Shown here: positions 13,801 through 57,708 of the stretch, piece after piece | Position numbering within the stretch: the first letter of the stretch is position 1 | Layout: the number at the start of each line of letters is the position of its first letter | Assembly (NCBI GenBank): GCA_963930775.1 | Contig: OZ005689.1 | Coordinates: 4,464,001 to 4,528,000, forward strand | DNA from: Cliona cf. orientalis | Taxonomy: Eukaryota; Porifera; Demospongiae; Clionaida; Clionaidae | DNA: 64,000 bases | Reading direction: 5' to 3' | Translations under genes and position numbers: made by a program | Notes under the pieces: generated by a model | Told to the model about the DNA's origin: nothing | What the model saw: the letters and a program-made list of their open reading frames with translations, nothing else | The model's database searches: none

Positions 13801-14288
13801 AGGTTTTCTATATGGTAGTTTTCAATTACAATACTTTTTAGTGAATCAAAAAAGTCCTGGGAGTGATCCCCCCTAGATGAACTAGCGGGTGGTAGGTAAC
13901 ACACACATATCCCAATGCTTTTCCTACTTGTTTTATGGATTAGCTGGACGAAAAGGATGCCTTCAAACTTATTTGAGAGGACAGCAATATCATAATTAGT
14001 CAATACGTTGTTACGTACTAGGATACCCACTCCTCCAGACCCTCTACATGCTCTCTTAGAAAGGGACTTCCTGTTATTACCGAACCATGTAAAACCGGCT
14101 ACGTCTAATTCTTGCTCACCTATTAGAAAGGTCTCACTCACACACACTATATCAAGTTCAAGGGCATTAATTATTTTGGTTCTTAACAGTTGTGATGGGT
14201 CTGAGCCCCACCCCCGGACATTCCAGGCCCCAAGTTTAATGACATTAGAGGAGGGATGGAGGCTGTCTGAAAAACCTGCATGCCATTA
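10809..14288 (-). CDS. CR1-like ORF2: AP endonuclease and reverse transcriptase
   Basis: Open frame of about 1160 codons ending in TGA at 10809. The N-terminal endonuclease starts at GAWNVRGWGSD (about 14240) and includes GDLNAR and the SSIPDHRIL motif. RT motifs are FVDFKKAFD, GVKQGCILSPTLFAMFIDDL and LLYADDAVV, with an intact catalytic YADD. The C-terminus has a Cys-rich patch (RTCQLCKDGVGDESHFLLSC). The frame is open back to a TAA near 14288 but has no ATG before the endonuclease. It overlaps the end of ORF1 by about 105 nt, so translation may depend on a frameshift or on a non-AUG start. No stop codon interrupts it, so it may be a young copy. Confidence 0.9.
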
Positions 14289-25669: not shown

Positions 25670-26198
25670 AATAGGCCCTTTTCCAACATTACGTCATAAA
25701 CGCGCGGGTGGTCAAAAGTGAGCGCTAATTAGAACCGCACCATAGTAATGTATTGTGAAGTATACCTCCAAAAAACGCGGTCTCCTACCTGGAACCAGCT
25801 GTACTGCAGCTATTCATGGCGATAATGCATTAGAAGAGGGACTAAAGACTGTGTTTATTGCTAGAAGGCAGCACCAAATCTGGAGTGTCAGTTGCGTGGC
25901 CACCTCCAACTTGACCATCATGAGTCCTCCTGTGGATAGTGCTTTTGTGGAGAAAAGGGACCTATGACGCTCTCGAAACACGTTTGCAGCCCACAGCAGT
26001 GGCCTGATCAGAACCAGAACAAGCTGAAATAGTGGCAGGGTAAGTCACTTTGGTATAAACTAGTCTGAAAGGGCACATTTTAGGACAATGATTTTTGAGG
26101 TATACTTCACAATTATACGTTACTATGGCGTGGTTCTAATTAGCGCTCACTTTTGACCACCCGCACGTTTATGACGTAATGCTGGAAAAGGGTCTATT
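25670..26198. mobile_element. TIR element overlapping the predicted 5' end of receptor B
   Basis: Long TIRs: AATAGGCCCTTTTCCAACAT at 25670 is mirrored by ATGCTGGAAAAGGGTCTATT ending at 26198. The arms continue through TTTGACCACCCG and TTAGCGCTCAC for about 100 bp. The first in-frame ATG of receptor B (26179) lies inside the right TIR. Confidence 0.8.
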
Positions 26199-26599
26199 GT
26201 ACTCAGAATTCGTGAGAGCCCTGATATTATTGACCATTATTTTCTTAGCCATACAGGCATTTTCTTCATTACCCAATACCGGATGTACTTGTGCTGGTGA
26301 CACATTGACCTATGGTTGCACTGCTGTTGGACCTGGAAACACATTGTGGGAGGGAAGTGTTTTTGATTGTGTTGCAAAGTCCATTGTTCTACGTCACAGC
26401 CTATATGGTACAGGAGGTGCCTCTGGAGTATGTAATGGTGGAAATATAACAGCAAGAAGCATTGACGTTAACAATAATTGCTATATTTCACAACTTAGTG
26501 TCAGAGTCAGCTCTAACTTCAACAATAAGACAATTAGGTGCACCCATGACTCGACTATGGGAAGGGAAACCATTGGTTCATCAACTTTGATAGTTCTAG
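26179..26599 (+). CDS. Receptor B exon 1: signal peptide and Ig-like module
   Basis: Hydrophobic ALILLTIIFLAIQAF is followed by CTCAGDTLTYGC, LWEGSVFDC, NCYISQLSVRV and IRCTHDS. These line up one by one with CICPGYDM, WRGSAFDC, NCYTSQLYITV and VECVYDN of receptor A exon 2. Ends phase 1 at GTCAGT. Confidence 0.78.
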
Positions 26600-38500: not shown

Positions 38501-41500
38501 CGCCCCAATAAAGGTAGCTGTGCTTGGTGAAATTTTATCCAGTGAAAATGCTCTGAATCACGTATGTGGTGTGCCGTGGTGCACTACATTCAGTTCAGCT
38601 TTAGAATCCGTGTACTATGGGATGCTCAATTGTTTTGTTCATGTGTGATGAAACAGTTGACCATATCTTCAGTAGCTGCATAATTGTGATGGTGCATAAT
38701 ATTATTATGGTAAACGTCTTTAATAATTATAGTGTGTAAACAGTCTATATCGATGCTGGCACCTCATGATCAGTCGCAGAGAGACTGATTCTCAGTTTTG
38801 TTTTGGTGCTTCAATCGCAGATTGAGACGAATTTGATAGCTTCCGAACTTGAGATTGGTCGTGCTGCATGCATGATGCTTGCTATATGGAGTGCAAACTG
38901 TCTTTATAGTAATATTGTTGCATCCACGGGATTACGTAAGCCAAGAGAATGCATAAAACTCAACCAGTACTTGTCTGAGAAGGTAACATGCTGCTTAAAA
39001 AAGTATTCACTGGATTCACGTGTATCTAAGATGCTCTACATATCATCGAGGCCCTAAATTTTCTTATAATTATTTCATAGAATGTGTACCTCATAACTTG
39101 AGCTCTGTAGAGCACATACCCCATGCACACATTGTGCAATCTGTAGAATGATGTACATGCTTCATACCGTAAAGTCTGGTTAATAAGCGTATGCGCTTAT
39201 CACTCTCGGCGGTAAGGAAACATGTGCCTATTAGACGATGTGCGCTTAATAGAGAGTGAAGTTTTGGCCCCACCCACTGCCAGCACGTTCGAGCGCTCAA
39301 TGACAAAGCTAGCCAGTTATGAACACATTGATTCTTGGACTAAGCTCTATAATAGTTCATGGGAGTATGATCGGAAGCCATCGCTGGAAGAAAACCGTGG
39401 AAAATAGCCAATTTCTTTGGCGCTCGCTTCGGTCAAGGCAGAGGTCAAAAGTCTGAACCCGTCTCAGTGGAACATCGAAGTGTTGAGTACAGCCGATCTC
39501 ATGCAGCTGGCTATCCGAAAATAGGTTGGTAAATTAGTTCTAGCCATGTAGAACATGGAACACTCTTGATCGAACGATGACTATTACTGTTGTCTTTATT
39601 GGGCGCATGCGCTTATTAGACAATACTTCATAACAGGAAGGAAGCATGCGCTTATTAAAAAATATGCGCTTAATAAGCATGTGCGATTATTAACCAGACT
39701 TTACGGTATTTGAGTTAGTGGATAGCAGGCAAACACTACAGTACAATGACATGAGCATTACTTATAACATGTCCCTAGTCTTTGCCAGTTCATATAGGCC
39801 ACTTAGTTGTGCGCATGAGCAGAAAGCAGATGCTTGTATGCATTATGTATTGAGTAGGCCACTGTCCATAGGCATGGCTATAATGGCAATCAAAAAGGCA
39901 CTCTTTGTATCACTCGCTGATCGTGTCCCTCGATTTGAAACTTGCTGAAGCCAATTTTTCACCAAATTCGACTAATTCGAGATGATTACAAGTCACTCAG
40001 GCACCTAGATATTGAAATATGATAATTTTTGTGCTCACGACGACACAACTGATTACTTTACCCCTTGCACATGTGCACGAGGTAATATTACACTGTAGGT
40101 TTTATCGTAATTACAGTGGAAGCCCTTTATGCTGGACCCCCTTGGGACAGCTTAAAGGGTCCTAATTAAAGGAGATGTCCTCAGTTCAGAGATAGTTTAT
40201 ACATTGTTCTATATATATAGCTTGGACCGTGCATGGTGTCCTGATTAGAGGAGATGTCCCCATTTCAGTCATGTCCTTACAGATGGATTCAATGCACTGT
40301 ACCTCATACCATAAGAAAAGTTAATTGCTTTCAGGTATAATGTATTAATGCATATATTTAGATTGTACCAACAATTTCGTTGAGGTGAAGTATGATGAGT
40401 CCGCTTCTACCATCACCTGTACTTTCCTTGACCTTCCAGAAAGTACAGTATCTGTCAGATCATGTGAAATTCGATATGGAGGTTGTTCATCCGATCTAGC
40501 TGAATTATCGCGTGGCAGTACTACTACTACAAATGAAGTTGTATTGAATGTGTTATTGACTGAATCGGATCAAGAGTATTGCTACCTTGTTACAGCAAGC
40601 AATGGATTGGATATGGTCATGGTGGAGGGTAGAATTAGTGAGTGCATATATTCGTACATATATACAGACTGCTAGTAGTTTATATTAAGGGCTTCTAGAT
40701 GCTTATAATCCTTGATATAGTATTTTGAGCGAGTAAGTGTATCAAAAATAATATAAGCCCCGGGCTTTATCCTGACTCTGGAGATCTGGCAAAAAAAGGA
40801 GACTGGCCTTTATTTGGGACCAGGTTTTAAGCAGTACAAATACAAGGAAATGATCATACTCTACCTCCCCACTGGCAGATATCGCCATTCCTGTGCACAT
40901 TAATAAAACAAGCTTCCTGGTAGCTAAAAATGTGCCAGCGCTTGCTTCTACCTTGTGAAGGACTGGTTGCAATCAAAGGCAATGCTTACAGAAGTTGTGT
41001 AATATTGTGTTGAAATACCACACCCACAGCTGGAAAATTTGTTACTCCCAGCTTCAAAACCTTATTTCAAAGACGGCTTCTATATGGTAGACTAAGTTAT
41101 GTACTGCAAGCTTTTGGAGGTTTCAACATGATTTATCGTGAATCACGAATATACCATACCCTTGCGAAAGAGGGCCCACCAGGGCCCACTACGGAATGTC
41201 GGCCCACCCTCCACTTTGGGCTCAATTTCCTGCTAAGGTCTAGTGTTTACTCGAATATGCGCCCATGCGTAGCTGCCCTTGAAAGCGCAGCTCAAATGCA
41301 TGAAATGGCTGGACTGTACTTCGAATAATCTGCAAGCTTTTGGAGGTTTCAACATGATTTATCGTGAATCACGAATATACCATACCCTTGCGAAAGAGGG
41401 CCCACTACGGAATGTCGGCCCACCCTCCACTTTGGGCTCAATTTCCTGCTAAGGTCTAGTGTTTACTCGAATATGCGCCCATGCGTACCTGCCCTTGAAA

Positions 41501-44500
41501 GCGCAGCTCAAATGCATGAAATGGCTGGACTGTACTTCGAATAATCTATGTAAGATCGATAAGTAATGTGATAAATAGCCGTAAAACTAAGCCTAGCTAA
41601 CTTTATGCATGCCACGTTACAGCACAAATAAACGATCGTACACGGCTAGCGATCGTAGCCATGCCCACTGAACACGGCTGCACTCAACAACACACAGTGA
41701 AGTATCGCGGCCGCCTTGCTCTGGAATGGTAACCGTGCTTGAATAAGGCTGAAATCAATAGTAGCTGCTGCTACTATTCAAATTATGAAGCTAGCGTGGG
41801 TAACTTACCTGGGCGCTCTTTCGAGTATAAATGCGATACTGATACCTTGAATATTGGCCCATCCCCCAATTTTGGCCTAATGTAAGGTGCACTGCCCATG
41901 GGCCCTCTTTTGCGAGGGTACGGTAAAATATTTTGGACTCCCTGGCTTGTGCGAAAATTAAACGCACGAAAATACATGCGCAATATTAACGATAATGTGG
42001 TACAGGGTCATTTGTCCAAAAATTATTTAACTGTGAAAAATTATTGCATGAAATATTTTGGAGACGAAATATTTGCGATTTCCGGAAGTCTTTCTGTGAA
42101 GAATCCAGAGTTAAGCAAGAGTTCTTAGTTACTCTATAAACCATATAGAAAGTAGCCAGCATGATAACTTGATAAGTGAGTAATGCAGATGGTAATTATT
42201 TCCATTCAGATAATGCTTATGCACGACCGTGATGCGATAATTAAGAATTAACTGAGTATAGCAAGCATACCAAAGAACCAGTATAGTAAAACTGTCATTG
42301 ATCTCGTACATATAAGAAGTCTACGTTGCATTCAGGAGTAGTTCTTCCTATAGCCGTCATAGAGATCTCTCCACTGCTAGGCTATTTGCATGGGTGCACT
42401 TACTCAAAGATGCTTAATAATACTGCATGGCAAGAGAAGCTTCATTGCATGTATATAGCTTGTATTGAGTATTACAGGAATTATTATTTGTTTGTTTCAG
42501 GCACTGCTGGTGGTCTTCCTGTTGTTGCCATCACTATTGCAACGATTTTGTTTATCATGGTCGTTGTTGCAATCATTATAGCGGCAACTTTTGTACTTTT
42601 TTTCAAGTTACGTAAGAAGAGTGACTATCATAGTAAGGCCTGTCTGTTGAAACATGAAGCTACTAATTTTGTATGATGCTTTTGTAATAGGTATGGGAGT
42701 ACCTGAAGAATATCTTGGACATGTTCCTCTTAATACTCTTGATACTGCTGCACATTCTGAGGATATCAAATCCGCTGAAAAGCAGGGAATTGACCATCGC
42801 TTTAATCTAAAGAGAATAAATTTGGATGATATTGTCTTTTTTAAATTGAAAACTAGCTATCCTATTGAACTTAAAACCCTTGTGGAGGATGCCTTAAAGC
42901 CAAAGAAATTTGAAAGGGGATGTGCCTTTTATGAATTCTTATACAAGGAGGATATATCTGATGTCCAAGAAATTGTATTTGTGAATGTATGTGATGTTAT
43001 AGTAACTTTTTGTTCTGCATGTGTAATGGTTGATTGTACTGTGTCATATTATAGGAAGATGGCGAATATTTTTTTCCTAACATTGGCAAGGAAGAACTAC
43101 GTGTTGAGAAACTCATTGGTGAAAATCTAATGCCACCAAAGTTTGAGGGTTACAGAGTATTTGTTCAGAGTACAGGATCAGGAAGACGGTACATACCAAA
43201 GGAGAGTATGGCATTATACAAGGTATCATTGAAAGCTTTCTCTGAGTTACTTTTCATCTAATTGTTTCATATAGCATTTTGTGCGAATAAAAGAGCATCC
43301 ATTAATTCATGTTGATGCATCAAAATTTGCACTGAGAAGGGTTCCCAATGACTGTACACTGAAAGAGTTCTGTCAAAATTGTAAACCCAGAGCTAACATA
43401 AATGCTGTATATATTGAGCTTGATATAATTGAGGATGTTGGTGATATACTTGATGTGATGCTGTTGGACAAGGTTGTTATGAGGCTCTGGCAGGAGATGC
43501 TGGATATAATATTAGCTGCATTTTTTACATAGGCCACAGACAGGGTATTCACTGGAACTTCTGCTTTGCATATGGTAAAGGAGCACTATAGCCAATCTAA
43601 AAACATTGATGATAGGCACTGGAGAATGTATGTATTCAAAGAATTCGGAGAAATGTACCAGATGAGGAAGGATATGTATATCTTGTATGAGATTCAATTT
43701 GAGGTTTGTTACATAACCCTGCTTCCAATCTATGCATACAACTATGGTGGTTATTACGTATACCACTAGACCATACGCATATATTAAAATTACCATAGAA
43801 TCCCACAATTACACCCCCTCATCCATAGACCCCCTGCACTTTCGGCCCAATTTGCTACACATAGCTAAGCCAGCACTTTTGTCTCATGTATAAGCTCCCC
43901 CTCTCCTCTAACTGTGAAACATAGAAGTTAGAGTCCAAAAGCCAGTGAAAGCAGAAGCTAGAGCTAGCATACTAGCCATTTGTGTGTGCCTTATTTTGTT
44001 ACTTTTTTTCGAGTTTGCCCATCAAACAGCCAGAGGAAGTGCAGAGATCGCACGCACTCCCACGTGGCATTCGTTTGCTGGTTATGGTCATCAAGTGGAA
44101 TTGTCATAATCCCGCGTGTAAGTGCACTCGAGCTCCCTGGTTTTACCCAACGCTGACATGCAGAAGAGGGGGATAATTACGAGATTCTATATTATTTTAT
44201 ATCCTATATACTTGTAATAAATACTGTGATCTGATTGGTTAAACTGAAGTATCTATCCTTCATAGAAAATTTCTTGCCTATGGTTAGGGTTGTTGCTAGG
44301 TAGCAGTTTACGTATCTAGCTTTTGGGCATGGTTGCTAGGATCTAAACATGTTAGAAACGGTTTAGTCGGTTTCTACGTGATTGAGAAGACCTCAGGGTT
44401 CAGTAGAACCCTCGTTTTGCTCAGGATTCTACATAGAGCCCTTCAGTCTTCTAAATCATGTGGAAACCTCCTAAACAGTGTCTAACTATTATACGGTGGC

Positions 44501-47500
44501 TTGGATTTAGTATAATTACCAATCTTATTGCCCATTGTTCATATTTGCTGCAGGTACAAAGGGAAGAGTGGCCTCTTCTAGATATAAAATTACCAGTCAT
44601 TTGTGCTGATGGTACACCATTTATCCAAGAAAGAATTGAGAAAGCTTGTACCCTTGAAGCTTTTCGTGAAAAGTATGATTTGGATACTGATGTTCATAAT
44701 GTATTAGTGGAGTCGTCACGATTTTCTGAAAGTGACTTGGAGAGTGCCCAAATATTTGATGTCATTATAGAGGACCTGGTTAGTTATCTACTTCATCCTT
44801 GTATCTTAGGTAATGAGTAAATTCTAAGTGATAAATCCAGTCAGAATCCCTTGGCTTGTAAGAATAGGTGACCAATGTGTATTAATGCACTACTCATAAT
44901 ATTATAGCAACAAGACCACTGATTTGTACAATGCTATATACTATGGAGAGTGGCTAGGGCAGCCATTGTTTACACGTACAGGTGCAAAAAGCGGGCGTGC
45001 TAAGTACTACTACTCAGCAATAGTCTATTAGCTATCGCTTATCACGTGCCAGTGTGGTGTGTGCACGTGCATAGCTATTTAGCTAGCTACTACACTGGCT
45101 AGATGGAGTTTTAGAAGTAGGTGGTATTCCCTTCAAGAAGCTACTTCAGTTACTGATACGAGGGAAAGAAATAGTCCGGAAATGCAGTTTACCAATGGCA
45201 GCTACTGTTCCACAAAATTCACATCATAGGGTGCTCTATATACTTAACGTCCGGAGTATGATGGCACATGGAAAAGTAAGATGAATAAGATTCTTTCTGC
45301 ATTACTTGCCTTTTCTTGTTGCTATAAGTAGGATATAATATCATTATAACACCTATACCGCCATCACCATGGATTTGCACCCTCAGGATTGGGTGGTTAT
45401 CCATGATACAGTATAGTTGAATCGAATACAATGCATGATCCAATTTAATGCAAGAAATTAGCATTTTATGAATTCTCATAATGTTTATATATGGAGCGAT
45501 TGACAACCTTTACCAGAAAAACACATTTTTCAAACACAAGTTATTTTTTCCATGTGTTGTATTAGATTAAGTACGGTAAATCCTGGGTGACCGTGGTATA
45601 ACTATGTTGTTATAAAGTGACATTCATCGTTTTAACCTTAGCACTCTACACATGCATGCTTGACTGAAAGGGCTTAGGCATGGTTAGTGCGGCAGTGGTC
45701 ACTAAAAATACCATAGATACTGGTTATTGAAATGTATGCGAATATAATCACTAAAATACCGTATAGCCGGAAATATTGGCGGGAATTAAATTTGGCAGTT
45801 GAGCCCAAAATCGCTATATGCAAGAATGTAGGTGAATTTAAATTTCGCGGTTCGGTACAGGATTGCCATACGTATATATGCGAGTAGGATATATTGGCGG
45901 ATTTTAATTTGGCGGTTGTAATATAGACCACCAAACTGCCAAATTTAATTCCCCGTCAAATTTTCCGGCTATACGGTACAAAGCATGGACTTGATTAAAA
46001 CATGGTAGGTTGACACCTAACATGCCTATAGGCGACCTTGATAGATACCATATATTACAGATCGTGCAGGCGCCTCCAATTAGAACCAATAAATTTACGA
46101 GCAGGTCAAAGGGCGCCTAAATTAGGGAGGCAATTAGAACGGTCCTGGAAGTTTTGCCAGAGCTCAAGTGTTATCACTGTTTCTGGTGCATTAGCCATCA
46201 GAATGGTTGTCTCTAACTCCAGGAAGGCATCAAAGCAGTGCTCACATAAATCATTAAATGTAAGACAGCTTAGTTTGACATCTAAACTGCTAGCTTGATA
46301 GGTCAATCGATGATACAGCTGTATTGTGATAGCAATACGTTCCAATTAAACAGGCACCGCCTAAAAATAATTGATGTCCGGAAAGGCGCCTTTAATTAGA
46401 ACAGAAAAAATTGCGCAGGTCTCAAAGGGCGCGTACATTAGAACATATACAGTACTTAGCACAATGCATTGATGCATTAATTAAGAAGTTGAACCCATAT
46501 CTATCAGGGTTTCATTTAGGGGGGGGGGGGGCGGGAGGGGTCACTCGCCCCCCCTTGGAAGCTGGCTGCCCCCCCCCCCCCCTTGAGAGTAGCCACCATC
46601 CATACATGTAATACATGTACAAGTAAAAGATTTAAACAGTGAAAGTGTCCAAAGCGGCAGTTTTGCTTATTTTAAGCCATAAATTAGCTAAAGCTTCGCG
46701 CTACGCGCGGTAGGAGACACATTCCACATCCTTGCAACATTTGACTTGAAATAGAGGGGAACCAGTGGATATTATTGACAGACTTTCCCCATCCAAGTGC
46801 TCAGAAGCCACCAGAAACAGTCTAAGAGGTTGAAACATTAAAAAAATTTCCTGGGGGAGCATACCCCCAGACCCCCCTAATATAATGAAGTTAACGAGCA
46901 CAACGTCCTTCTTCACGGATGGAAAAACATACTATAGTCTTTGCCCCCCCCCTTAACTCTGGAATTGTCGTGTTTGCCCCCCCCCCCTTGACAAAATTCC
47001 TAAATGAAACCCTGTCTATGGTATACAGGCTTGAGAACAGAAGTTGTTCCATAAAGGTCATGATTATAACAGTTAGTATGATGAAGAAATAGGCATGCAT
47101 AGATTAATATTTTCAGCATTAGGTACCATTTGCTCTATTTACCACCAACCTATAATTTCAACAATGGTGCTTATTAATTTAATTTTAGTACTCCTCATTA
47201 TTGGATACACATGCAGTGTTTCAATATTAAGTGGAGGCATGTACTTAATGCAAAGATTTATGTGGTTTCGGCATTATGATTCTGATAATTAAGATATTAC
47301 TCCAAATGAACAAGTAGGTTTAATGTCACAATCATGGGATAATGTGGCTAGCATGCATGATCATCTATTAACAGTATATGCTTACAAAACATAGAGACGT
47401 AGTTCATGCACAAACACTATTAGTACCGTGCGCATGCACAGATTGAAGCGGTTGCAGAGACCACACCCCTCATAGCAAGCCACTGCCAACTAAGTGTGCA

Positions 47501-50500
47501 ATGGCAACGTTCTCGCTCTGCTCGAACGTTGCTATTGGACTACTGACAGGTATGACAAAGAACAGATCTCACCTTTCGCTTCGCTCGAGGCTCAGTACGG
47601 TGGCTAGCGCCAGTGCTAGCGCCTGCTTTAGCAGGCCTCTCAAACGCTGCGCTTTCGCGCCGATCGTTCGACAGTCGACAATGCATCTCTATGGCCCCAG
47701 GCATTTAGGCCACCTTTCTTCGTGCACACGGCCCTACTGTTCTGACCAATCCTGAGCCTTGTAGTGCGGACTTTCTCTCCGCTCGCGCCGCGCGTTCATA
47801 GCAACCGGGTGCATCCAAGACGCGTATCCATGCCCTCATGTAATGACACGGACTATATAAGAAAAATGATCGTCTGAAAAATATTTTTGTTGTATATAGT
47901 ATAATAATAGTGAGTATAGTGTCATTATTATAATTACAGATGAACGAAAATACATTCTATACCTGCCGTGCTCTTTGGAGTATTATCAAAGTTTACATCA
48001 AGGAGAAACACAGATGGAGAGTGTACATACTGAGGGAAATGGGACCAACATTTATGCTATGGGTTGATACTTGGGTTTTATATCGGGTGAGTTAATTCAT
48101 GTAAATATAAATTTTTATAATACTGCACAATAATTTTCAAACATGGCCAAACAAATACTGCTACGGATACAGTTGTGAATGTGCAGATACAAAGGCTTTG
48201 TGGCCTGCTGTGTGATACATTTTAAGCTTTGCACCTTGAGTTCACTTACTATTGCATGTCTAGGATCACCACATTTGTGCACACTACATGCATGCATGCA
48301 TGCATGCCCCTACAGTTCTAACCCTAACCTGGACATTCAGAACTACATATTGTGGTAGTTCTTACTATCGATTTATTATTATTATTCAATAGCCTTTACA
48401 ATAGCTTGTATGCCAGATGACTTACACAGACTTGACAGGAAGTAGACTGACAAACACACAAGAGATGGCACATTTTATGTGCACACAACAATGACATAAC
48501 GTCATGATAATATGAATAATAATCAATACTGCCACATCTCCGCTCTTAAGCAGTAGAGTCACTCAGGGGTTTAACAACTGTTCCAGTTTGGGATCTGGTA
48601 ACAGTTCAACTCGATTGTAATTATTCACTGGTCCAGGATGGTTCGTTCGACTCAGGTGGAGCAACTGTTGGCGGTTTCGCCTCAATACACCAGTAGGAGT
48701 GTCCACAATAGGGAATTTGCAGGGAAACGACTCTGCCTTCAAGACGCACACCTTCTGAAGTAATCCACACCAGGTCCTTTGTGTCCTCCGAAATATCCTC
48801 CAGGCTATGTGGTCAGTGACGTTTATCGAAGTCCTGCTTCTGCTTTAGTTTGAACTTCTGGTTGAGAGATCTAAATTCCACCAGGTATGGTCATTTAAGG
48901 ACCAGCTGCTCCTTTACTTGAGGAATGCAGGTTTTGAGTGATCTTCCCATCAGTAGTTCTGCTGGGCTTCTCTGGCACTATAGTGAAGTGGTGACACTCT
49001 AGTTTAGAAGCGCAAGATAAGAATCACTAGCTTGCTTTAGCAGTCGCTTCACGGGATGGTGCGCTCAGCCTGGCTTTTGCCCTGAGGATGGTGAGGACTG
49101 CTTGTCAGATGCTGAAATCCATAGGACTTGGCGAATTGTGAGAAGTCTCGTGATGCATATTTGGGACCATTATCACTTTTGATGATCTCGAAGATCCCAT
49201 ACCTGGCAAAGATGGACTTCAGGGACATTGATCATGGCTAGCAAAGTAGTAGAGGTGAGTTTAGCAATCTCCGGATACCTAGAGATTCTGAAGTAATCTA
49301 CCACCAGCAGATAGATAACTCCTTTGAGCTTGAATAGATCATTTCCTATCACTTGCCAAGGGTAGTCTGGCAGTGGAGAAATCATTAGAGGCTCCTTCCT
49401 TGGAGTAGCCTCTTTTGCGCACACAGGATAGTGCTGGATCATCTCTGTCATCTGTTTGGTAACTCCTGGCCACCAGACAGAGTACTTGACTCTCAGCAAC
49501 GTCCTATGCCTTGATGTCCGGTGTGCATTTTCTCCATTTCTCCAGTGTCTCCTTTCTTAGAGAAGTGGGGATAACGATCCTATTTCCATGTAGGAGCAAA
49601 TCGTTTTTGAGTGTGATGTACTTCTGGCATTCCAGTATGGGATAAGCTCTGGTTCCATTCTCTCTTTCCTAGGTCAGCTGGAGAGGCAACACTCTTTGAC
49701 TCTGGAGCATGCTGCATCCCTAGCTAGAGCTTTCTTGTATGCCTCCAGCTGGTTCGAGCTTGCAGGCAGATTGTCTGTAACACTTGCAGTAAATGACTCC
49801 ACCTCTTCTTGTAGCAGGAGAGAGTTCATTCCTACGATGGGAGCTCTTGATAGAGTATCTGCAGTGTACAGAAGCTTTCCAGGTACATGCTGGATGCTAT
49901 AGTCATACCGGGCGAGTCACAGTCGGAAACAGAGAATTCGTGGAGATAGGTTGTCCAGATTCTTAGTGCTTAGGAGTGGGACTAGGGTTTTATGATTCGT
50001 CTTAATGTTGAAATGACATCCAAGGATGTAATTTATTGCATGACCACATAACGGCGAGACCTTCTTTATCAATCTACGCCTAACACTTCTTGGTGTCTGT
50101 CATTGACTTGGATGCATAAGCTACTGGCTTCCACTTCTCAATATGCTGCAGGAGAACAGCTCCTTGACCAGGTGTCTGCTGAAACTTTTGTGGGAGCTTT
50201 TGGGTTGTCAAGAGCCAGCACTGTAGGTTGAGAGGGCTCTATTTTGATCTGCTCGAATGCCTGCTCTTGGCCGCTACCCCATATCCATGACTGTTTGGTA
50301 CTCAGGAGTTCATTGGGACAGTTCGGAGATTTGAGTGGAGAACTTCCCCAGCAGGTTCACCATGCCAAGAAATCTGCGTAGCTTGGTCACGTTGGTAGGT
50401 GCTTTCATCTGGAGGATAGCTGAGGTCTTCTCAGGAACTGCTCTGATGCTCGGTCGATCAGATGCCTGAGGAATTTGACTCGGTCTCCTCTGAATTCACA

Positions 50501-53500
50501 CTTGCCTGAATTAAGAGTTACCCCATGTGGCTGCAGCAGCTTCTAACCTCTTCATTACGGCTTGTAGGCGGACGTCATACTCCATTTGGTTGGTTCCATA
50601 CACCAACACATCATCCATGTGCAAAGGATTCCTCCTATATAGCCCTTCCAGGATCACATTGATACAGTGCTGGAACAACTTGGGTGCACTAGATATCCCG
50701 AAGGGAAGTTTGTTAAAACAGCACCTGCCAAAGGGTGTGATAAAAGTCGTGAGGGGCCATGATTCTTTGGCTTGGGGGATTTTCCAAAATCTACTGTTTG
50801 CTTCAAGCTTTGAGAAGATCTTTGCCTCCAAGGCTTGAACTAGCATCTCATCCACCTTTGGGATGGGGTGCGATTCACGTAGTACGCTTTCGTTGAGCGG
50901 CTTTAAGTCGACACAAATGTGAACGGCTCCAGAGCACTTTGGTACAACTACTACCATTGGTGTCCACCAGGGGGTAGGTTCTTGGATAGGAGAAATTACT
51001 CTCATAGCTTCCATTCGGGTAAGCTCTTCCTTCATCTTCTCATGGAGGGGGACGGGTACATTTCAAGGGGTGAAGAGGGCATAATGAACGGCTCCTTCTT
51101 TCAGCATATTTGGTACTCATCTCCCAGGTTGCGCAGACCTGCAAACACGTTTGGAGATTCCCATCGCATGTCTCCTCCTACATCAACACTGTTCACTCGG
51201 TAGAAAAGCTGGAGAGAGATAATCGCTAAAACTTCTAGCAAGTTATTCCGTAGTCCACGTATGACAAATATGGCTTATCGTGTGGTGTCGTTCTGGCATT
51301 CCAATATAGCTGTGAACTGATTGAGGACATTGAGTGTCTGTCGCGCTGGAACGAACAAGACCTTGGATGTCTGTTGCAGTTCAGGTTGGCCGAGACAGTA
51401 ACTTGTGCTCCTGTATCTAATTTTGAAGGAGATCTCCACCTTATTGAGGAGTAATGTGGTCGTCCATAGAGATCCTGGGCTCGCTCTCACAGTTCCCAGA
51501 AATGCTGTGTCCAAGTTGAGCTTATTAGTATTAACATTGGCTACTATTTTAGAGAAGCATTGGCTGCTATAGACTCCCTTGTGGTTACACTTATGACAGA
51601 GCATCTTTAGCTAGACAGACACCTGACTCCCTTATCATGTTTCGGTTTGCCACATCTCATACGTATTTGCTTGGTTGCAGGTGCTGTGGCACTACTGGCG
51701 CCTCTTTTAGCTGATAACGATCTCCCAGTGGAGGTCTCCTCGTTTGAGGTTTCTTTGATGGGGTGCTACCTTTGACCTGGTCGACAACTATGGGTGCTTG
51801 TTTACTGCCATCACTTTGCAGCTGCTGCTGCTATTCTCAGACACAGTTTCTCGTTGGTGCACCTTCTTCTTGGCCTTTTCGAGGGTCAAATTGGTGTCTA
51901 GTTGCAAGCACTCGGACAGAGCAGCATCTGTCCATAATGATGTGGTCTTGTAGCATCCGAGCCTTCTTTGAATGCTCCGTACTTGCAGGAGTCAACAAGA
52001 CGTTAGAGAGCAGTGATGTACTGTTTGACTGAATCTCCTTTGAGCTGGTTTCGACGACTGAACCTTGCTTGCTCGAATATTACATTCTTCTTCACTTGGA
52101 AGAAGGCGTCAAATTTCTCAAGAACCATCGCATACTTGTTCTTGCCTTCTGCTGTGAAGTTGGTGGAGGTGAGGATGTCGTCAGCTTCCTCTTTGAGGCA
52201 GTACAGCAGCGTATTGACTTGCCTCAGCTCGTCCGCTTTGACGAGTTCTGAAGCAACCCGAAATTGCTCAAACCGCTTCTTCCATTTAGGCCAAATTTGT
52301 GGCTGCTTGAAGTCAAATGGTTTGGGCATCCTTGTAGTTGCAGGTTCGCTAGAGCCATATCCCGCCAGCTGCCACCATGTAGTAGCTCTTAATATCAATT
52401 TGTTATTATTAAACAGCATTTACAACAGCATGTATGTCGGATATCTTACACAGACTTGACAGGAAGTAGACTGACACATACACAAGAGATGGCACATTTT
52501 ATAAGTACACAAATAATCACACATACATCATAATACTGCTGTGCCATAATTATTTTCTTCATCTAAGACCTTCTCTGAACTTGTCTATAGCTTCACATGT
52601 GGTGCAATTCATCCTATATAGTAACCGGTACTTTTGTTTTATTCTGTGTAGGCAAAAGCAAATCAATTTAGTGACACCAGCTTGAAGCCAATTATCTCAG
52701 AACGATTTCATATAGTAACACCATCTAGGAGTTGTACATTTGATGAGTTTAGAAAAGAACAGCCTCAAAAATGCAATATTTTCCTTGAGCTTGGTTACCT
52801 GCAGAAGGATAAGAAAATGATTGATGTTATCTTGATGGAAAAGGTAAATTATTGCAATTCAATGTGAAGTCATATTGCGATATGTCCAAACGTACTGCTT
52901 ACTGTTTGTACAGGCTACTGAGAAGTTGTATTCTGGTCTTTATGCACGTGATTTATTCAAAAAACACTTTAGTGGTTCCCAAGTGCTGGATGATGTCAGA
53001 TGGAAGGTATTTGTCTTCTGCAAATTTAAATCGAGTTTGCGGCTTACCAGTACTACTCAAGTATTATGCCAGGTATTTATTACTGAATCAGATGTTACGT
53101 GTAAATTTAATGTTGTAACCCTTACAGAAATTATTACGTATTCATAGTTGTATACCTTTGGTTGAGCCAAGCTCTCATAGCCCTCTTGCTGTCATCTGAT
53201 CCTCTATGATAGCAAGTGCACAACTCATCTAGACTAAGTGTATTTATTCTCTTCTTCTAAAGGGTGACTGTCATTGATTTAGCAGTTGCTTGATGATTTT
53301 TTTCCGTCTATAATATAGAATGCACAAACTGAGGCTACTACAATGCATGTACCCTATTTTACACTAATGTTTGGATTTAGATCTGGTTCTGCATGCTATT
53401 GGGGTCCATCTGGAGATATTTCTTTTATTGATCTGTAGCCTGAGTGTCCCTTCCAGTACATCAAAGTACACGTCAGCAGTCTGGGAATGAACAGTACTTA

Positions 53501-54827
53501 GACTCAAAAATCTACGACTAAGAATGGTATATAGAGCACTTATGCTTGATAAAGTTTAAAGTGCTATTCATTCCAAGATTGGCTTCCCATAAAGCCAAGC
53601 ACATTTTATAGATGCTAAAATAATTTATATAAAATGTTGTATAATGCTATAGGATTATGGCCCGCTGGCTCAAGCATTCCGTGTTCTCAAAGTGGATGAA
53701 GAGAATGACATTGTGCGGATGTCAGAGTTTATTAAGCAAGAAGTTGGTGACTACAAAAAGGGTGAAGCATTCTATGAATTTACACAAGAAGAAGATCTTG
53801 CCTTTTATAGAGAGATTTTGCATGTACCCAAGGATGTACTCGAACACGAAGATGAAAATCAGATCGTAAGTATAATCTCATATTAGGTGATGCCATTATA
53901 TCGTGAAAAAGGGCCAATGGGTAGTACATATTTTATTCGACAGAGGAGTGGGGTGACTTTCGAGGCTTCAAATAATATACTGTGTACAATAAAGCGTACA
54001 AAATCGTGCAAAATTTAATAGTGCACATCATGGGCTAATCACCTTGTAATCTGGTGTACGTAGCCCTCTAATGCTGCTTGTAGCATGTGCAACCTTGTTA
54101 AGCTAGCTAGACCGTAAAAATCCTAATTTACAATGCTTGTGCCTACAGAATATTAATGAAAACTGTTAGGGTTTGAGGTGAGCGAATAATCCATAGGGAC
54201 TAAAATGTAGTGTTAAATCCTAAACTGAAAATGTGACAGATGATGCCGATAATAATTATTAAATCCATTTACAACAATGCTACAAATATCTACAACTCAG
54301 GTCAGTGGTGAAGCAATGATTTCTGAAACACCACAGACTCAGCAAGAAACAGCGGAAAAGAAGGTACTGATAATAACTTTTAGACTCTGAAGAGGTATAA
54401 GAGAATGAATTCAAAGTTGTCAAATTAATGTGTCCAGAAAAGTGCATAAAAAGTCGACTGACTACGCATGCATGGTTACAAGTATACAAACATGTAGCTA
54501 ATACATTTATAATAATATAATAATATAATATGTATCTTCTTTAGATTTTAAAATTTTAATCAATTTTATTTCTAGTTGCTCAAGTTGAAATCTGATACAA
54601 AATCCTTTTATGATATTATTTCTGGAACACGTGGTCGGAGACTCGGAATCAAATCTCCAAATATACCTGGAAAGAGAGTTTTCATTCAGTGTACATCACA
54701 AGGATCGAGATGCCTCAGCAAAGGAATGCTAATTCTCTATAAGGTAACAAAAGTAGCTATTTTAATAATTGGAATAGCTTCTACTTAGTGCTTCATATTC
54801 TTGTATTAGGTGGAATGTGGAGAATAA
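26179..54827 (+). CDS. Receptor B: Ig/FN3-like single-pass receptor with five cytoplasmic repeats
   Basis: Rebuilt from 18 exons: 26179-26599, 27628-27900, 34308-34396, 37398-37635, 40362-40637, 42501-42632, 42691-42986, 43055-43222, 43275-43472, 43533-43703, 44554-44778, 47940-48086, 52652-52843, 52914-53072, 53653-53865, 54301-54363, 54576-54743, 54810-54827. All have GT/AG borders and the sum (3447 nt) is in frame, giving 1148 aa. Order: possible signal peptide, Cys-rich Ig-like module, FN3-like modules, transmembrane helix (about residues 437-462), then five copies of a two-exon repeat I do not recognise. The ectodomain is paralogous to receptor A. A signalling receptor role is inference. 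The 5' end is uncertain: an acceptor-like TTTTCTTAG at 26241-26249 would move the signal peptide to an unseen upstream exon, as in receptor A. Confidence 0.78.
27628..27900 (+). CDS. Receptor B exon 2: FN3-like module
   Basis: Starts after TTGTATTGCAG, ends before GTATGT, phase 1 at both ends. FSWDSLGPNCESTNYRIIS and DCGGCPNSTN match FNWSKAISECPDR and NCGSCPTTTN of receptor A exon 3. Confidence 0.82.
27901..28914. other. Start of the 6.4-kb intron of receptor B
   Basis: Non-coding DNA with a partial CCCCAGTAGC-family copy at about 28666-28915. The intron continues to 34307 and holds the ORF at 29391, the minisatellite at 31228 and the KDZ-like pseudogene. Confidence 0.5.
28915..30167 (-). 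mobile_element. Probable transposon carrying a 258-codon ORF of unknown function
   Basis: The element end TGTGACCCTCCACGAGGAAA at 28915 and the next about 400 bp (GAGTTATGGCTCGAAGAAGTC, TTTCTTCGATTTTG) reappear inverted in the 60061-60592 MITE, so this is the end of a mobile family. The minus-strand ORF 30167-29391 follows, with a basic N-terminus (HARKRRL), FFQDRKALWCYLIGNSCVAF and VSLYRLFGFSLHVSIQFRNR. I do not recognise its family. It may be the coding part of the autonomous element or a captured gene. The far boundary was not defined; another end-like TGTGACCCTCCAC at 30553 is in direct orientation. Confidence 0.5.
29391..30167 (-). CDS. Hypothetical protein, 258 aa, transposon-associated
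   Basis: ATG at 30167 to a stop at 29391. Mixed alpha/beta-looking protein, Lys/Arg-rich at both ends (TLEKKQKLRKQLSMLKVLV near the C-terminus), with no signal peptide or transmembrane segment. No domain recognised. It is intact and antisense within a receptor B intron, next to sequence shared with a MITE family. A product of a DNA transposon is the best guess. Confidence 0.45.
   Translation of the reverse strand: MIHARKRRLSTIPDPTRMMPKTKRLIVHELRSIAQELKNTDLDVIQQVVIREVQKEQHVHFFQDRKALWCYLIGNSCVAFRELLKDGIDNFCFLYVDQCSKGADRHLRLFLAWNNYSATYAVASMSTPTSSRRWSRLVSGYAGAVSDDCRSAIMSVVFSSLFTFIVHQRDLILDNLRSRCESAICKEPAAPVTSDDDVSLYRLFGFSLHVSIQFRNRSCWSRSRVAKRYTLEKKQKLRKQLSMLKVLVESDRQSFRQY
31228..31456. repeat. 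Minisatellite of about 61 bp, four units, each with a dyad
   Basis: Units begin CATCCATTATTGGATGTTTC, itself a dyad (CATCCA...TGGATG), and contain a second TGGATGAAA. Unit starts are near 31229, 31291, 31352 and 31412. Related TGGATGATT/AATCATCC pairs occur just upstream (31120-31205). Confidence 0.7.
31566..33402 (-). pseudogene. KDZ-like transposase, decayed
   Basis: Read on the minus strand. A basic N-terminal part (APKRRRLIPTSRG, 33402 on) leads into the 33309-32752 frame. After a TGA the same frame continues to MCPKCSHLYHHLWDMIQRKK, then shifts to TPKSLSEHEKNEKRQALANK (about 32600-32371). Further down, 32020-31566 encodes GIFTIFCPHGVCCGFEVMRS, HPFEIFSTRF, YDNCCKLHQYALNRQP, FFVDRFHWRGHVGCSSGYS and NKQANAGLQRIKGQIAYMKP. 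A TAA sits just before YDN. The last block resembles KDZ (Kyakuja-Dileera-Zisupton)-type transposases as I know them; the link to the N-terminal part is inference. Antisense within a receptor B intron. Confidence 0.62.
34308..37635 (+). CDS. Receptor B exons 3-4: second FN3-like module split by an intron
   Basis: Exon 34308-34396 (phase 1 in, phase 0 out) encodes LPDAPSVQFVPRFSGDTRQL. Exon 37398-37635 (phase 0 in, phase 1 out) encodes DTYAIGDGIPGSVVAYVMK through SAANRLGVGPASNPARI. The module is flanked by phase-1 introns but split by a 3-kb phase-0 intron filled with MITEs. Confidence 0.7.
34473..34496. repeat. (CTGT)n microsatellite
   Basis: About six CTGT units in receptor B intron 3. Other short tracts: (CATG)n at 48288-48307, TAGC repeats at 19677-19690 and 58207-58220. 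Confidence 0.85.
34628..35118. mobile_element. CAGGGTTTCATTTAGG MITE, copy 1
   Basis: Ends CAGGTTTCATTTAGG and CCTAAATGAAACCCTG; target duplication AATGG at 34623-34627 and 35119-35123. Poly-G runs lie inside. Copy 2 at 46505-47014 is inverted relative to this one. Confidence 0.82.
35815..36238. mobile_element. CAGGGGCGG-type MITE, copy 3
   Basis: Ends CAGGGGTGGATCTTGG and TAAATCCACCCCTG; target duplication GTATT at 35810-35814 and 36239-36243. It shares the GTGGGCGTGG and TTTCGCGCGCTTCGCGC segments with copy 2 (4691). Confidence 0.82.
36310..36602. repeat. Interspersed repeat shared with 47545-47910
   Basis: TATGACAAAGAACAGA, CAGGCCTCTC, ATGCATCTCTATGGCC and GACTATATAAGAAAAATGATC occur in the same order in both copies. 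Upstream, 35640-35814 matches 47316-47440, so the shared block is larger and the MITE at 35815 splits it. Confidence 0.68.
36865..37238. mobile_element. MITE with TACCGTAGAATCCCGC ends, copy 2
   Basis: Left end TACCGTAGAATCCCGCAATT; degenerate right end GGGATTCTATGGTA. Inner CCACGTGGGCGCGCGATC as in copy 1 (inverse). Confidence 0.74.
37853..38509. mobile_element. TIR element with GGGGCGAGCCTGAG ends
   Basis: GGGGCGAGCCTGAGC near 37853 is mirrored by GCTCAGGCTCGCCCC near 38509. No coding sequence. It lies in the receptor B intron 4 (37636-40361). Confidence 0.65.
38648..39100. mobile_element. CCCCAGTAGC-family MITE copy in receptor B intron 4
   Basis: Contains GTAGCTGCATAATTGTGATG, AATCGCAGATTGAGACGAAT, CACGGGATTACGTAAGCCAAG and TACTTGTCTGAGAAGG, as in the 24684 and 56296 copies (inverse orientation to 24684). 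Confidence 0.65.
39164..39709. mobile_element. MITE with ATACCGTAAAGTCTGG ends
   Basis: ATACCGTAAAGTCTGGTTAA is mirrored by TTAACCAGACTTTACGGTAT; TATGCGCTTA(T/A)TA repeats lie inside both arms. The remainder of the intron to 40361 shows a possible solo element end (ACAGTGGAAGCCC, about 40118). Confidence 0.78.
40362..40637 (+). CDS. Receptor B exon 5: third FN3/Ig-like module
   Basis: Phase 1 at both ends. Encodes VEVKYDESASTITCTFLDLP, SCEIRYGGCSSD and EYCYLVTASNG. The beta-strand pattern is FN3-like. It is the membrane-proximal ectodomain module. Confidence 0.75.
41107..41546. repeat. Recent tandem duplication, about 215-228 bp twice
   Basis: TGCAAGCTTTTGGAGGTTTC starts at 41107 and again at 41332. 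The copies differ by a 12-bp gap (CAGGGCCCAC region) and about one substitution. Intronic, non-coding. Confidence 0.82.
41919..42085. mobile_element. MITE with TACGGTAAA ends, copy of the 6749 family
   Basis: GGCTTGTGCGAAAATTAAAC, ACATGCGCAATATTAACGAT and GTACAGGGTCATTTGTCC match the centre of the 6749-6941 element. Right end ATATTTGCGATTTCCGG is diverged. Confidence 0.7.
42501..42632 (+). CDS. Receptor B exon 6: transmembrane helix
   Basis: Phase 1 at both ends. Encodes TAGGLPVVAITIATILFIMV then VVAIIIAATFVLFF, followed by the basic stop-transfer KLRKKSDYH. This sets the topology: modules before are outside, repeats after are cytoplasmic. Confidence 0.85.
42691..43222 (+). CDS. Receptor B cytoplasmic repeat 1 (exons 7-8)
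   Basis: Exon 42691-42986 holds the juxtamembrane segment and first half (TLVEDALKPKKFERG, CAFYEFLYKEDISDV, EIVFVN). Exon 43055-43222 holds the second half (EDGEYFFPNIGKEELRVEKL, YRVFVQSTGSGRRYIP, MALYK). The intron between them and the one after are phase 0. Family not recognised. Confidence 0.78.
43275..43703 (+). CDS. Receptor B cytoplasmic repeat 2 (exons 9-10)
   Basis: Exon 43275-43472: RRVPNDCTLKEFCQNC, NAVYIELDIIEDV, DVMLLDK. Exon 43533-43703: ATDRVFTGTSALHMVKEHY, HWRMYVFKEFGEMYQMRK, YILYE. Both phase 0 at both ends. The halves align with those of repeat 1 (CAFYEF with NAVYIEL; YRVFVQS with WRMYVFK; MALYK with YILYE). Confidence 0.78.
43791..44191. mobile_element. MITE with TACCATAGAATCCCAC ends, copy 3
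   Basis: Degenerate copy of the 5834 family. It has the inner CAAACAGCCAGAG segment and CACGTGGCATTCG, and ends GAGATTCTATA. It lies between receptor B exons 10 and 11. Confidence 0.68.
44554..48086 (+). CDS. Receptor B cytoplasmic repeat 3 (exons 11-12)
   Basis: Exon 44554-44778: KACTLEAFREKYDLDTD, NVLVESSRFSESDL, DVIIEDL. Exon 47940-48086: TFYTCRALWSIIKVYIKEKH, RWRVYILREMG, WVLYR. The halves are split by a 3.2-kb phase-0 intron with three TIR elements and a repeat that abuts exon 12. Confidence 0.74.
44779..45755. other. Receptor B intron 11, 5' part
   Basis: No coding exon or clear TIR element. Contains TATAATACAGTATAG-like AT-rich sequence only. Confidence 0.4.
45756..45979. mobile_element. 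MITE with ATACCGTATAGCCGGAAA ends
   Basis: ATACCGTATAGCCGGAAATA is mirrored by TTTTCCGGCTATACGGTA, with GAATTAAATTTGGC(A/G)GTT in both arms. Confidence 0.8.
46067..46450. mobile_element. Element with GGCGCCTCCAATTAGAACC-type ends
   Basis: AGGCGCCTCCAATTAGAACC at about 46067 and GGCGCCTTTAATTAGAACA near 46384, with CAGGTC(T/A)CAAAGGGCGC subrepeats on each side. Probably a MITE with iterated ends; limits uncertain. Confidence 0.5.
46505..47014. mobile_element. CAGGGTTTCATTTAGG MITE, copy 2
   Basis: Ends CAGGGTTTCATTTAGG and CCTAAATGAAACCCTG; target duplication TCTAT at 46500-46504 and 47015-47019. Inverted relative to copy 1, with the same inner GACAGACTTTCCC and CCCCCAGACCCCC segments. Confidence 0.83.
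47316..47910. repeat. Interspersed block shared with 35640-36602
   Basis: AATGTCACAATCATGGGATA, AGACCACACCCC, TATGACAAAGAACAGA and GACTATATAAGAAAAATGATC match the block in intron 3. It ends about 30 bp before exon 12 of receptor B. Confidence 0.66.
49173..49499 (-). pseudogene. gypsy integrase fragment
   Basis: VWWPGVTKQMTEMI and the PWQVIGNDLFKLKG region with LLVVDYFRISRYPE resemble the integrase N-terminal part and the start of its DDE core. The frame breaks soon after, and the last part of the core lies outside this frame. Confidence 0.72.
50511..51035 (-). pseudogene. gypsy reverse transcriptase fragment
   Basis: WWTPMVVVVPKCSGAVHICV, RESHPIPKVDEML, FNKLPFGISSAPKLFQ and MDDVLVYG are RT motifs. 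The expected Asp after KL is Glu here (FSKLEANSRFWKI), consistent with inactivation. RNase H-like remnants lie at about 49900-50500. Confidence 0.82.
51275..51604 (-). pseudogene. gypsy zinc-knuckle and protease-region fragment
   Basis: CHKCNHKGVYSSQC is a zinc-knuckle-like motif that has lost its His. The following frame probably covers the protease region, but no clear DTG active site is visible. Confidence 0.6.
52003..52419 (-). pseudogene. gypsy gag fragment
   Basis: PFDFKQPQIWPKWKKRFEQF, VNTLLYCLKEEADDIL, FDAFFQVKKNVIFEQARF and RRNQLKGDSVKQYITAL are typical of gypsy Gag as I know it. It lies just inside the 5' LTR. Confidence 0.74.
52652..53072 (+). CDS. Receptor B cytoplasmic repeat 4 (exons 13-14)
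   Basis: Exon 52652-52843: SRSCTFDEFRKEQPQKC, NIFLELGYLQKDKK, DVILMEK. Exon 52914-53072: ATEKLYSGLYARDLFKKHF, RWKVFVFCKFKSS, TTQVLCQ. Phase 0 throughout. The LY(K/E/R) at the usual end of the second half is LCQ here. Confidence 0.76.
53073..53652. other. Receptor B intron 14
   Basis: About 580 bp with no element or coding exon recognised. Confidence 0.4.
53653..54827 (+). CDS. Receptor B cytoplasmic repeat 5 and C-terminus (exons 15-18)
   Basis: Exon 53653-53865: MSEFIKQEVGDYKKGE, AFYEFTQEEDLAFYREI. Exon 54301-54363 is a small extra exon (VSGEAMISETPQTQQETAEK). Exon 54576-54743 holds the second half (KRVFIQCTSQGSRC, MLILYK). Exon 54810-54827 encodes VECGE and TAA. Repeat 5 resembles repeat 1 most (AFYEF; VF(V/I)Q(S/C)T) and differs from 2-4, so the array is bounded by two similar end units. 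Confidence 0.75.
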
Positions 54828-55906: not shown

Positions 55907-57103
55907 ATGGATAAGCGTGTTGTTGCTGTGGTAGCTAGTTCGGAACATTCTGCTGAAAAGAAGGCATAGGGCCGATAAGAGATGGAACGAATGAAAGAGG
56001 AGATCTAGAGGAGAAGGCGCAGCGAGCTTTTTTGAGAAGGCAGGCTATGGAGCGTATGTTGTAAAGTCCACATTTACGCCAGAAGATTGACTACAGAATT
56101 TCTGTATATCGCAGAGTACCTTCATGTACTTGGGCGATGAAGTAGTTACAGTCCTCCATCGAGAAAAGTGTTACAGATATGTATGAGAAGAACAGTGCTT
56201 ACTGACATGCATGTTGTGCTTACACTATGGTTTTTAGCGACAGGTGCTGACTATCGTACCTTTAGTCACTTACTTGGCGTATCAAATTCTACTGTTTATG
56301 AACCCTTGACCACATCCCCAGTGGCTGCATAGTTCTACTGATGCATGTGGTAAAGGTCGTCAATACACACATCGATGTCGGGGCCTCAATCACAGAGATG
56401 GAGTCTAAAATCAACTTTCGACTTCGAGTTTCGATGCTTCAATCAAAGGAGATGAACTCGACAGCACAGTACAGCTTCCTAACTTCAGATCGGTCGTGGC
56501 ATGACGCGTGCTATAAATAGCGCAAGGCTAGCTTTATTTATCCACCGGATTACGTCAGCCAAGAGAACGCGTGAAGTTCGGCTGGCATTACTTGTCGGAG
56601 AAAGTAGCACTCAGCTTTTAATGTGTTCGCTGGATATGTATGTAAGTTAATATATGATTCTGTGGATTTTCAGGTCTCAGAAGTGTTCTGTAAAGGCTCT
56701 GAATTTTAGCGCTATGACGACATAGGTTACATCATAATTACAACATAATTACCTAATAACCGCAAAAAAGTAAATTTATACTGGGGATGTAATTTGGTGT
56801 CCAAGAATGTGACACTGTGTTCTGCCATCATAAAGAGTCTGCTTCCTCACTACGTAAGGTTTCCTGATGGCTTTAGAAGAAGAGATTATTGATGTTTTAA
56901 GCTTTTATCGTGATCTGGGTGTTCCTCAGTGTGTAGAAGCAGTTGATGGATCCCACATGTATCTTCAGGAGTGTCCAGCCGACTACTACAACAGGAAAGG
57001 CTGGCACTCCATTATGCTTCAAGGCACTGTCGACCATAGAGGCGGCTGGCCAGGTCAAGTTCACGATGCTTTTATCTTCGCCAACTCTAGTCCACATCAA
57101 TAG
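55907..57103 (+). pseudogene. HARBI1-like (PIF/Harbinger) transposase, split by a MITE
   Basis: Upstream remnants (FMYLGDEVVTVLHREK, about 56120) lead into LTLWFLATGADYRTFSHLLG (to about 56295), a typical HARBI1 helix-turn-helix region. A CCCCAGTAGC-family MITE (56296-56793) interrupts. The gene resumes with CSAIIKSLLPHYVRFPDG, then a frameshift near 56866. It continues with VPQCVEAVDGSHMYLQECPA, DYYNRKGWHSIMLQGTVDH and WPGQVHDAFIFANSS. The first two DDE aspartates are visible (AVDG, VHD). Several residues between DHR and WPG are missing and the third acidic residue is absent. Confidence 0.8.
56296..56793. mobile_element. CCCCAGTAGC-family MITE inserted in HARBI1 pseudogene
   Basis: Runs from AACCCTTGACCACATCCCCA to ACTGGGGATGTAATT. 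It contains GGATTACGTCAGCCAAGAGA and GGAGAAAGTAGCACTCAGC, inverse to the 24684 copy. Coding resumes on each side. Confidence 0.72.
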
Positions 57104-57269: not shown

Positions 57270-57708
57270 TCAGTTTATTTTATCTTGGGCATTAGACACC
57301 TCTTGCCAGGTTGGTTGATTTGGATGGTGTTTTAGCCAGTAATCAAGCAATTCAACAAGGCTATCCTCCTCACAATAGTCTTTTAGTTGATTTAATATCT
57401 CTCTGGGAACTCCAAGAGCCAGACCAAATTGATACCATTTCGAGGTAACCTGGCGTTGGAGTAAATACTGCAGTAGACTGTTCAAATCTGGAGGACGACC
57501 TGCATGAAATTCAATAATTGTGACATAATTATATTAATACTCTTTAAAACACTAACCCACGATAATCTTATTATTTGGAGTTGTCTCTGGACTCTGCACA
57601 AGAATTAGCTAGGTACACTTAGTCTAATATGGGTTAGAATATTATGAGTATTAAACCTGTATATACCTCATTGCCAATGTTGTCATCAATACCGTACATA
57701 CCCATCCT
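57270..57708 (-). CDS. Death-domain protein, C-terminal exons
   Basis: Three minus-strand exons, 57708-57667, 57593-57557 and 57499-57270, join in frame (phase 0, then phase 1) with GT/AG ends. Product: RMGMYGIDDNIGNE, SPETTPNNKIIVGRPPDLN, then a six-helix death-domain-like C-terminus (NSLLQYLLQRQVTSKWYQFG, LALGVPREILNQLKDYC, LLDYWLKHHPNQPTWQEV) ending in TAA. Death domains mediate homotypic signalling contacts; the W in PTW and the LG(V)P pattern fit. Earlier exons lie upstream (above 57708), hidden among repeats or beyond the window. Convergent with receptor B. Confidence 0.78.

Follow-up and report, generated by a model that had tools for sequence, protein, structure and literature searches.

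A gene of the sponge Cliona cf. orientalis appears to encode a single-pass receptor whose intracellular tail is a tandem array of a module shared with VWA-containing proteins of many other lineages. An origin of this tail from the VWA-protein module is well supported by the sequence comparisons presented below, and we favor, with moderate confidence, the fuller reading of the gene as a single-pass receptor in which the borrowed array probably serves as a docking platform. The gene lies in the 64,000-nucleotide stretch of DNA analyzed here (the window; C1:4464001-4528000 of the 216.8-Mb assembly), and positions given without a contig label refer to this window.

The tail occupies positions 42691-54827 on the forward strand, 3' of a transmembrane exon, and comprises ten main exons and one small exon that together make up five two-exon units. 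Reconstruction of the exons from the DNA gave GT-AG splice sites for all of them; every intron 3' of the first tail exon is in phase 0, and the frame is open to the stop at 54827. Unit 1 is encoded by U1a (42691-42986), which combines a juxtamembrane stretch containing VPEEYLGHVPLN with the first half of the unit, and by U1b (43055-43222), which supplies the second half. The same division into first and second halves holds for unit 2 (U2a, 43275-43472; U2b, 43533-43703), unit 3 (U3a, 44554-44778; U3b, 47940-48086), unit 4 (U4a, 52652-52843; U4b, 52914-53072) and unit 5 (U5a, 53653-53865; U5b, 54576-54743), the last of which includes the small extra exon (54301-54363) and is followed by the final codons, VECGE and stop, at 54810-54827. 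The juxtamembrane motif V-P-x-x-Y-x-G-H-x-P/S-x-N, which reads VPEEYLGH in the window, was present in all 11 of the U1a database matches checked.

A tandem copy of the tail gene (C1:4451692-4461085), located immediately upstream of the window, provides a measure of constraint. The two tails differ by gaps of only 6, 6 and 3 bases and by no stop codon, and the dN/dS ratio summed over the 11 exons is 0.29; pN is not below pS in two of these exons, the small exon and U5b. The two-exon repeats and reading frames described in the initial annotation are thus borne out by splice sites, by a frame that runs to the stop and by this ratio. The intron between U3b and U4a contains, at 48549-52400 (-), a retroelement remnant that includes segments of a reverse transcriptase and of an integrase zinc-binding domain, and an 87% identical piece of it is present in the same region of the tandem copy. 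Elsewhere, the window carries a LINE-like open frame of 1158 codons with endonuclease and reverse transcriptase domains (10812-14285, -), a DDE_Tnp_4 transposase-like piece (56858-57103, +; E 0.0005, below cut-off) and a Death-domain-like exon (57273-57533, -; E 0.0013, below the Pfam cut-off).

A single transmembrane segment was identified, in the exon directly 5' of the tail (42501-42632, +), which is delimited by splice sites, has a hydropathy of 3.18 and matches a 73% identical exon in the tandem copy. Upstream of it, on the same strand, lies the membrane-proximal FN3-like exon FN3B (40362-40637), with homologues at paralogous loci, no Pfam hit and phases compatible with both the transmembrane exon and the preceding FN3-like exon, FN3C (37398-37635). 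The boundaries of FN3C could be read, and it likewise has no Pfam hit and has homologues 5' of FN3B at other loci. The first FN3-like exon, FN3A (27628-27900, +), has homologous exons in paralogues and an fn3 match (E 0.019) below the Pfam cut-off; its phase is mismatched to that of the next exon found, indicating that one intervening exon is absent from the model. The probable first exon (26179-26599, +), for which frame and splice site were read, encodes a start codon, a hydrophobic leader and a domain labeled Ig-like in the initial annotation, and the order of homologous exons in paralogues suggests that it belongs with the tail gene.

The linkage of these elements recurs at paralogous loci. 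Contig C1 harbors 21 loci with a first unit, including that of the window, and 20 of them have an FN3B-homologous exon 5' on the same strand, the exception being C1:3507832, where only 1.5 kb of upstream sequence was covered; a segment with hydropathy above 2.2 lies between the FN3-like exon and the first unit at 19 of the 21. This conserved linkage supports the proposal that the exons form one receptor gene and makes it unlikely that they are split among different genes. In the same linkage test, neither an FN3-like exon nor a hydrophobic segment was found for the three C5 entries; at the C5 locus, Ig/FN3-like exons do precede the array, and neither a transmembrane exon nor FN3B was found in the interval. 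For the window's Ig-like exon, 150 scored matches among 371 candidate places were recorded genome-wide, which makes the unit-tailed receptors one branch of a far larger family; these matches lie mostly in C1:2.7-4.5 Mb, many of them in one cluster. The Ig label itself found no confirmation in Pfam, which gave no Ig match in the 14 ectodomain exons of the genome scanned, and the FN3 label drew only sub-threshold support, with fn3 E-values of 0.019, 0.034 and 0.072 in three of these 14 exons. SRCR domains are also represented in the genome by at least 172 matches among 2082 candidates, a content that is compatible with a sponge but not diagnostic of one.

Sequence searches of Pfam, NCBIfam and PDB returned no convincing entry for the module, and profile searches against known families assigned the units to no well-described family, in agreement with the initial view that the domain is not a recognized one. 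The view that it is a speciality of receptors did not hold, because the module is also a conserved domain of a VWA-containing protein distributed across many lineages. The entry point to this protein was a weak match on C8, where one exon encodes a complete unit (C8:5044683-5045033, -) and a split unit (C8:5030647-5031315, -) adjoins VWA-like open reading frames; together they probably constitute one gene. A search with the C8 open reading frames, which reached proteins of up to 576 residues and was scored on the unit alone, recovered 344 proteins at E <=1. The matches listed, the best 120 of these 344, include proteins of corals, sea anemones, a soft coral, lancelets, the annelid Owenia, the copepod Tigriopus, the mite Dinothrombium, the diatom Epithemia and a Moranbacteria MAG, along with many unnamed entries. 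Pfam VWA or VWA_4 was detected in eight of nine such proteins scanned, in several cases below cut-off, and 52 of the best 120 of 344 carry the module on both sides of the VWA domain, many of the others being short fragments.

Homology between receptor units and VWA-protein modules is shown by profile comparisons in both directions. A profile built from 23 receptor units only matched all of the best 120 of the 344 homologues, as did a 63-unit profile without hand-set junctions, and among the scores listed for the receptor profile the best C-terminal module reached 94.9 bits and the N-terminal module about 50 bits. Conversely, a profile of C-terminal modules only recognized every one of the 42 A-type receptor units and 17 of the 21 B-type units (the two classes are defined below), and an N-terminal-module profile recognized 39 and 4 of them, respectively. 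Full-length profile matches were obtained in both directions, for four of the five window units, and hhalign aligned the receptor and VWA-protein modules over 115 columns (99.8%, E 8e-30). Furthermore, the C-terminal module of the genome's VWA gene is interrupted by an intron whose site and phase (0) match those of the receptor units; in the VWA gene and in window unit 2 it falls between ...DK and (V/A)T(G/D)xxFTG, a comparison made within this genome. Pfam detected no VWA domain in the tail exons or units of the window, so that the receptor shares the module without the VWA. The presence of a common module in the receptor and in an old VWA protein points to the latter as the probable source of the receptor tail.

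Several additional relatives came to light. Module-VWA relatives were observed on a viral contig (L074, 204685 bases) and in two bacterial MAGs (L075 and L076; Moraniibacteriota and Lloydbacteria), one of the two MAG sequences from these added scans being a record already among the protein matches. In two proteins, P0105 and P0137, the module is C-terminal and lies behind a basic, disordered-looking region, with no Pfam VWA in P0105, pointing to a third setting. The genome contains further weak matches at C4:801055, C4:6352302-6353366, C16:2232575 and C10:7768267, with E-values between 4e-5 and 0.013.

The units of the receptor tails fall into two classes, A and B, and the window array has the order A-B-B-B-A, with U1 and U5 of type A and U2 to U4 of type B. 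When the ten unit pairs were each compared with 1000 shuffles, the pairs U1-U5 (z 10.7), U2-U3 (18.5) and U2-U4 (26.0) exceeded all 1000 and U3-U4 exceeded 994. The six pairs that combine an A with a B unit all lacked significance, the closest being U1-U3, for which 69 of 1000 shuffles scored as high. The description of the tail as five copies of one domain therefore depends on profiles. These do unite the classes, since hhalign gave 97.5% (E 2e-11) when 42 A-type units were aligned with 21 of the B type, and a C-module profile derived from VWA proteins only scored 42.7 bits on U1, 38.4 on U5, 36.6 on U2, 23.5 on U4 and -0.2 on U3. The third unit, not recognized by the VWA-derived profile, is attached solely through its similarity to U2. 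The original claim of five copies of one domain is consequently upheld at the level of profiles and needs amending in that two kinds of unit are present, which show no resemblance to each other in pairwise comparison.

Nor are five copies the basic state. Of the 24 tails, some of them partial, whose units were typed, 11 consist of exactly three complete units in the order A-B-A and three are longer tails with A units at both ends (those of the window and of its tandem copy, with five units, and that of C1:4427175, with four counted); nine are incomplete in the sequence fetched, and one, on C5, is differently arranged. Because the classes hold their places in other tails, the five units of the window appear to be a three-unit tail whose middle part has been multiplied, the two extra units being B-type.

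The two classes differ sharply in the residues that define the module. Eight sites are conserved to at least 95% in C-terminal modules, and A units keep all of them at high frequency: G44 (98%), Y48 (93%), E49 (98%), E54 (95%), Q103 (95%), S104 (88%), S106 (87%) and R109 (97%). The corresponding values in B units are 0% at G44, Y48, S104, S106 and R109, 17% at Q103 and 40-47% at E54 and E49. We read this pattern as a putative pocket that the outer units have mostly retained and the middle ones have abandoned. Some residues that are invariant in VWA proteins are nevertheless mostly lost in A units (notably K52, kept in 10%; T115, in 21%; G46, in 0%), suggesting that the original binding function may be changed. 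At the sites diagnostic of module position, the residues of A units resemble those of the C-terminal and not of the N-terminal module (E49: C 98%, N 6%, A 98%; F50: C 100%, N 0%, A 81%). In a maximum-likelihood tree of 66 sequences, including 16 receptor A units and 24 N-terminal modules, the receptor A units define a clade (support 100) and the N-terminal modules define a separate clade (100) that excludes the receptors; the grouping of receptor units with C-terminal modules has weak support (27-40).

Structural predictions with AlphaFold2 yielded, for the Nematostella protein, two confident modules (block pLDDT 83-97) flanking the VWA domain, with a disordered linker. The predicted structure of window unit 2, calculated with its 60-base intron read through and from an alignment that contained homologues, had a mean pLDDT of 79.6. 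Compared by eye, the order of strands and helices is the same in unit 2 and in the Nematostella C-module, save for a helix added by the intron, and a structure search with this intron-containing model of unit 2 found no known fold.

The unit-tailed genes also have a recurrent genomic neighborhood. Eight such genes, a non-random choice, were examined on their 3' side, and seven of them face a convergently oriented receptor gene whose ectodomain belongs to the same family. The facing pairs are those of the tandem copy (with window 59-1087, -), of the window gene (with L077, 13 kb off), of C1:4427k (with L078) and C1:3283k (with L079), and those on C5, C13 and C16; for the eighth gene (C1:3211919-3213300), the next gene 3' is another unit-tailed gene on the same strand. 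The tails of the facing genes are tyrosine-bearing in the six read of the seven, L077 being read short of its end, and NIAY is present in three of them.

Taken together, these data are consistent with the following scenario. The window gene would be a single-pass receptor gene of a lineage-expanded family, its entire inner part an array of a module of about 115 residues that would have descended from one located C-terminal, and often also N-terminal, to the VWA domain of a conserved eukaryotic protein. The transfer probably took place as a two-exon cassette with phase-0 introns, and tandem duplication would then have produced A-B-A first and, later, the five units of the window gene. Receptors and adaptors with a common domain often bind each other or a common ligand. 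By the same logic, A units, which keep most signature residues, may bind the ligand of the VWA-protein module or the VWA protein itself, and B units may act as spacers or bind something else. Clustering of receptors could in this way concentrate many VWA proteins, or partners common to both, at the membrane, and such multivalent docking by the tail is, in our assessment, the best-supported mechanism.

The main rival to this reading holds that the tail is a scaffold for kinase/SH2-type signaling, in which VPEEYLGH carries the signal and the units merely present the motif or recruit unrelated partners. The retention of the motif in every U1a match checked and the tyrosine-bearing tails of neighboring receptors of the same ectodomain family lend it some weight, but the motif was not seen in the three-unit paralogue tails read, which still keep their units, and the low dN/dS extends across the entire five-unit tail and not the juxtamembrane part alone; we regard this explanation as rather unlikely. 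Equally doubtful, in our estimate, is that the units serve mainly to join receptor tails through homotypic A-A contacts, giving a clustered signaling layer without the VWA protein, an arrangement suggested by the A units at both ends of the 11 three-unit tails and of the window tail, and by the presence of two modules per VWA protein in 52 of the best 120 of 344 homologues, which would fit a paired mode.

The array might also be degenerating spare sequence with little function. The loss of most of the signature in B units, the distance of U3 from the profile and the two exons in which pN is not below pS would fit such decay; against it stand the lack of any stop or frame shift, the overall dN/dS of 0.29 and the retention of the A-B-A order in 11 paralogous tails, and we consider it highly improbable.

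Comparison with known systems helps to place the docking tail proposed here. The closest relatives are the module-VWA-module proteins (Nematostella LOC5507494 [P0036], Branchiostoma P0040, Owenia P0045 and Tigriopus P0050), whose flanking modules are homologous to the receptor unit. These proteins combine one or two modules with a VWA domain and, by eye, have no transmembrane segment and have basic stretches that look nuclear, whereas the receptors have three to five modules, a membrane anchor and no VWA. Toll/IL-1 receptors and TIR adaptors such as MyD88 are a case in which one domain occurs both in a receptor tail and in a soluble protein; the comparison concerns the way of working only, since the sponge receptor shares a different module, in tandem copies, and Pfam scans of the spliced units contained no TIR. 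With Ig-superfamily receptors that contain FN3 domains, the gene shares the leader, the single transmembrane exon and the Ig-like and FN3-like exons (as labeled in the initial annotation), and it differs from them in the absence of any Pfam Ig match or above-cut-off fn3 match and in its tail, an array of an undescribed module. Repeated beta-rich cytoplasmic modules are also found in the CABIT proteins (THEMIS, GAREM); we rejected this identity for the units, which have no CABIT match, Pfam CABIT occurring at three places in the genome, on C6 and C14, and at none of the unit loci.

The notion of a new receptor architecture stands in part: a literature search at the level of listings found none described, but the module itself occurs outside receptors and five copies are not its basic arrangement. 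The domain is new to the databases searched and old in evolution. These analyses define a previously unnamed conserved domain by its length, signature, predicted fold and two classes, and show that it occurs both in a widespread VWA protein and in the tails of a receptor family. The soluble VWA protein is thereby an obvious candidate partner for the receptors, making the function of both testable. A more far-reaching interpretation, which we advance as speculative and on balance unlikely, is that of an undescribed receptor class in which one Ig/FN3-like branch would signal only through arrays of a borrowed module, with the VWA protein as adaptor, and would often lie tail-to-tail on the chromosome with tyrosine-tailed sisters, for the paired recognition of self or microbes in an early animal. 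The genes described here offer a concrete, clustered receptor family with which to approach the question of how sponges recognize self and microbes.
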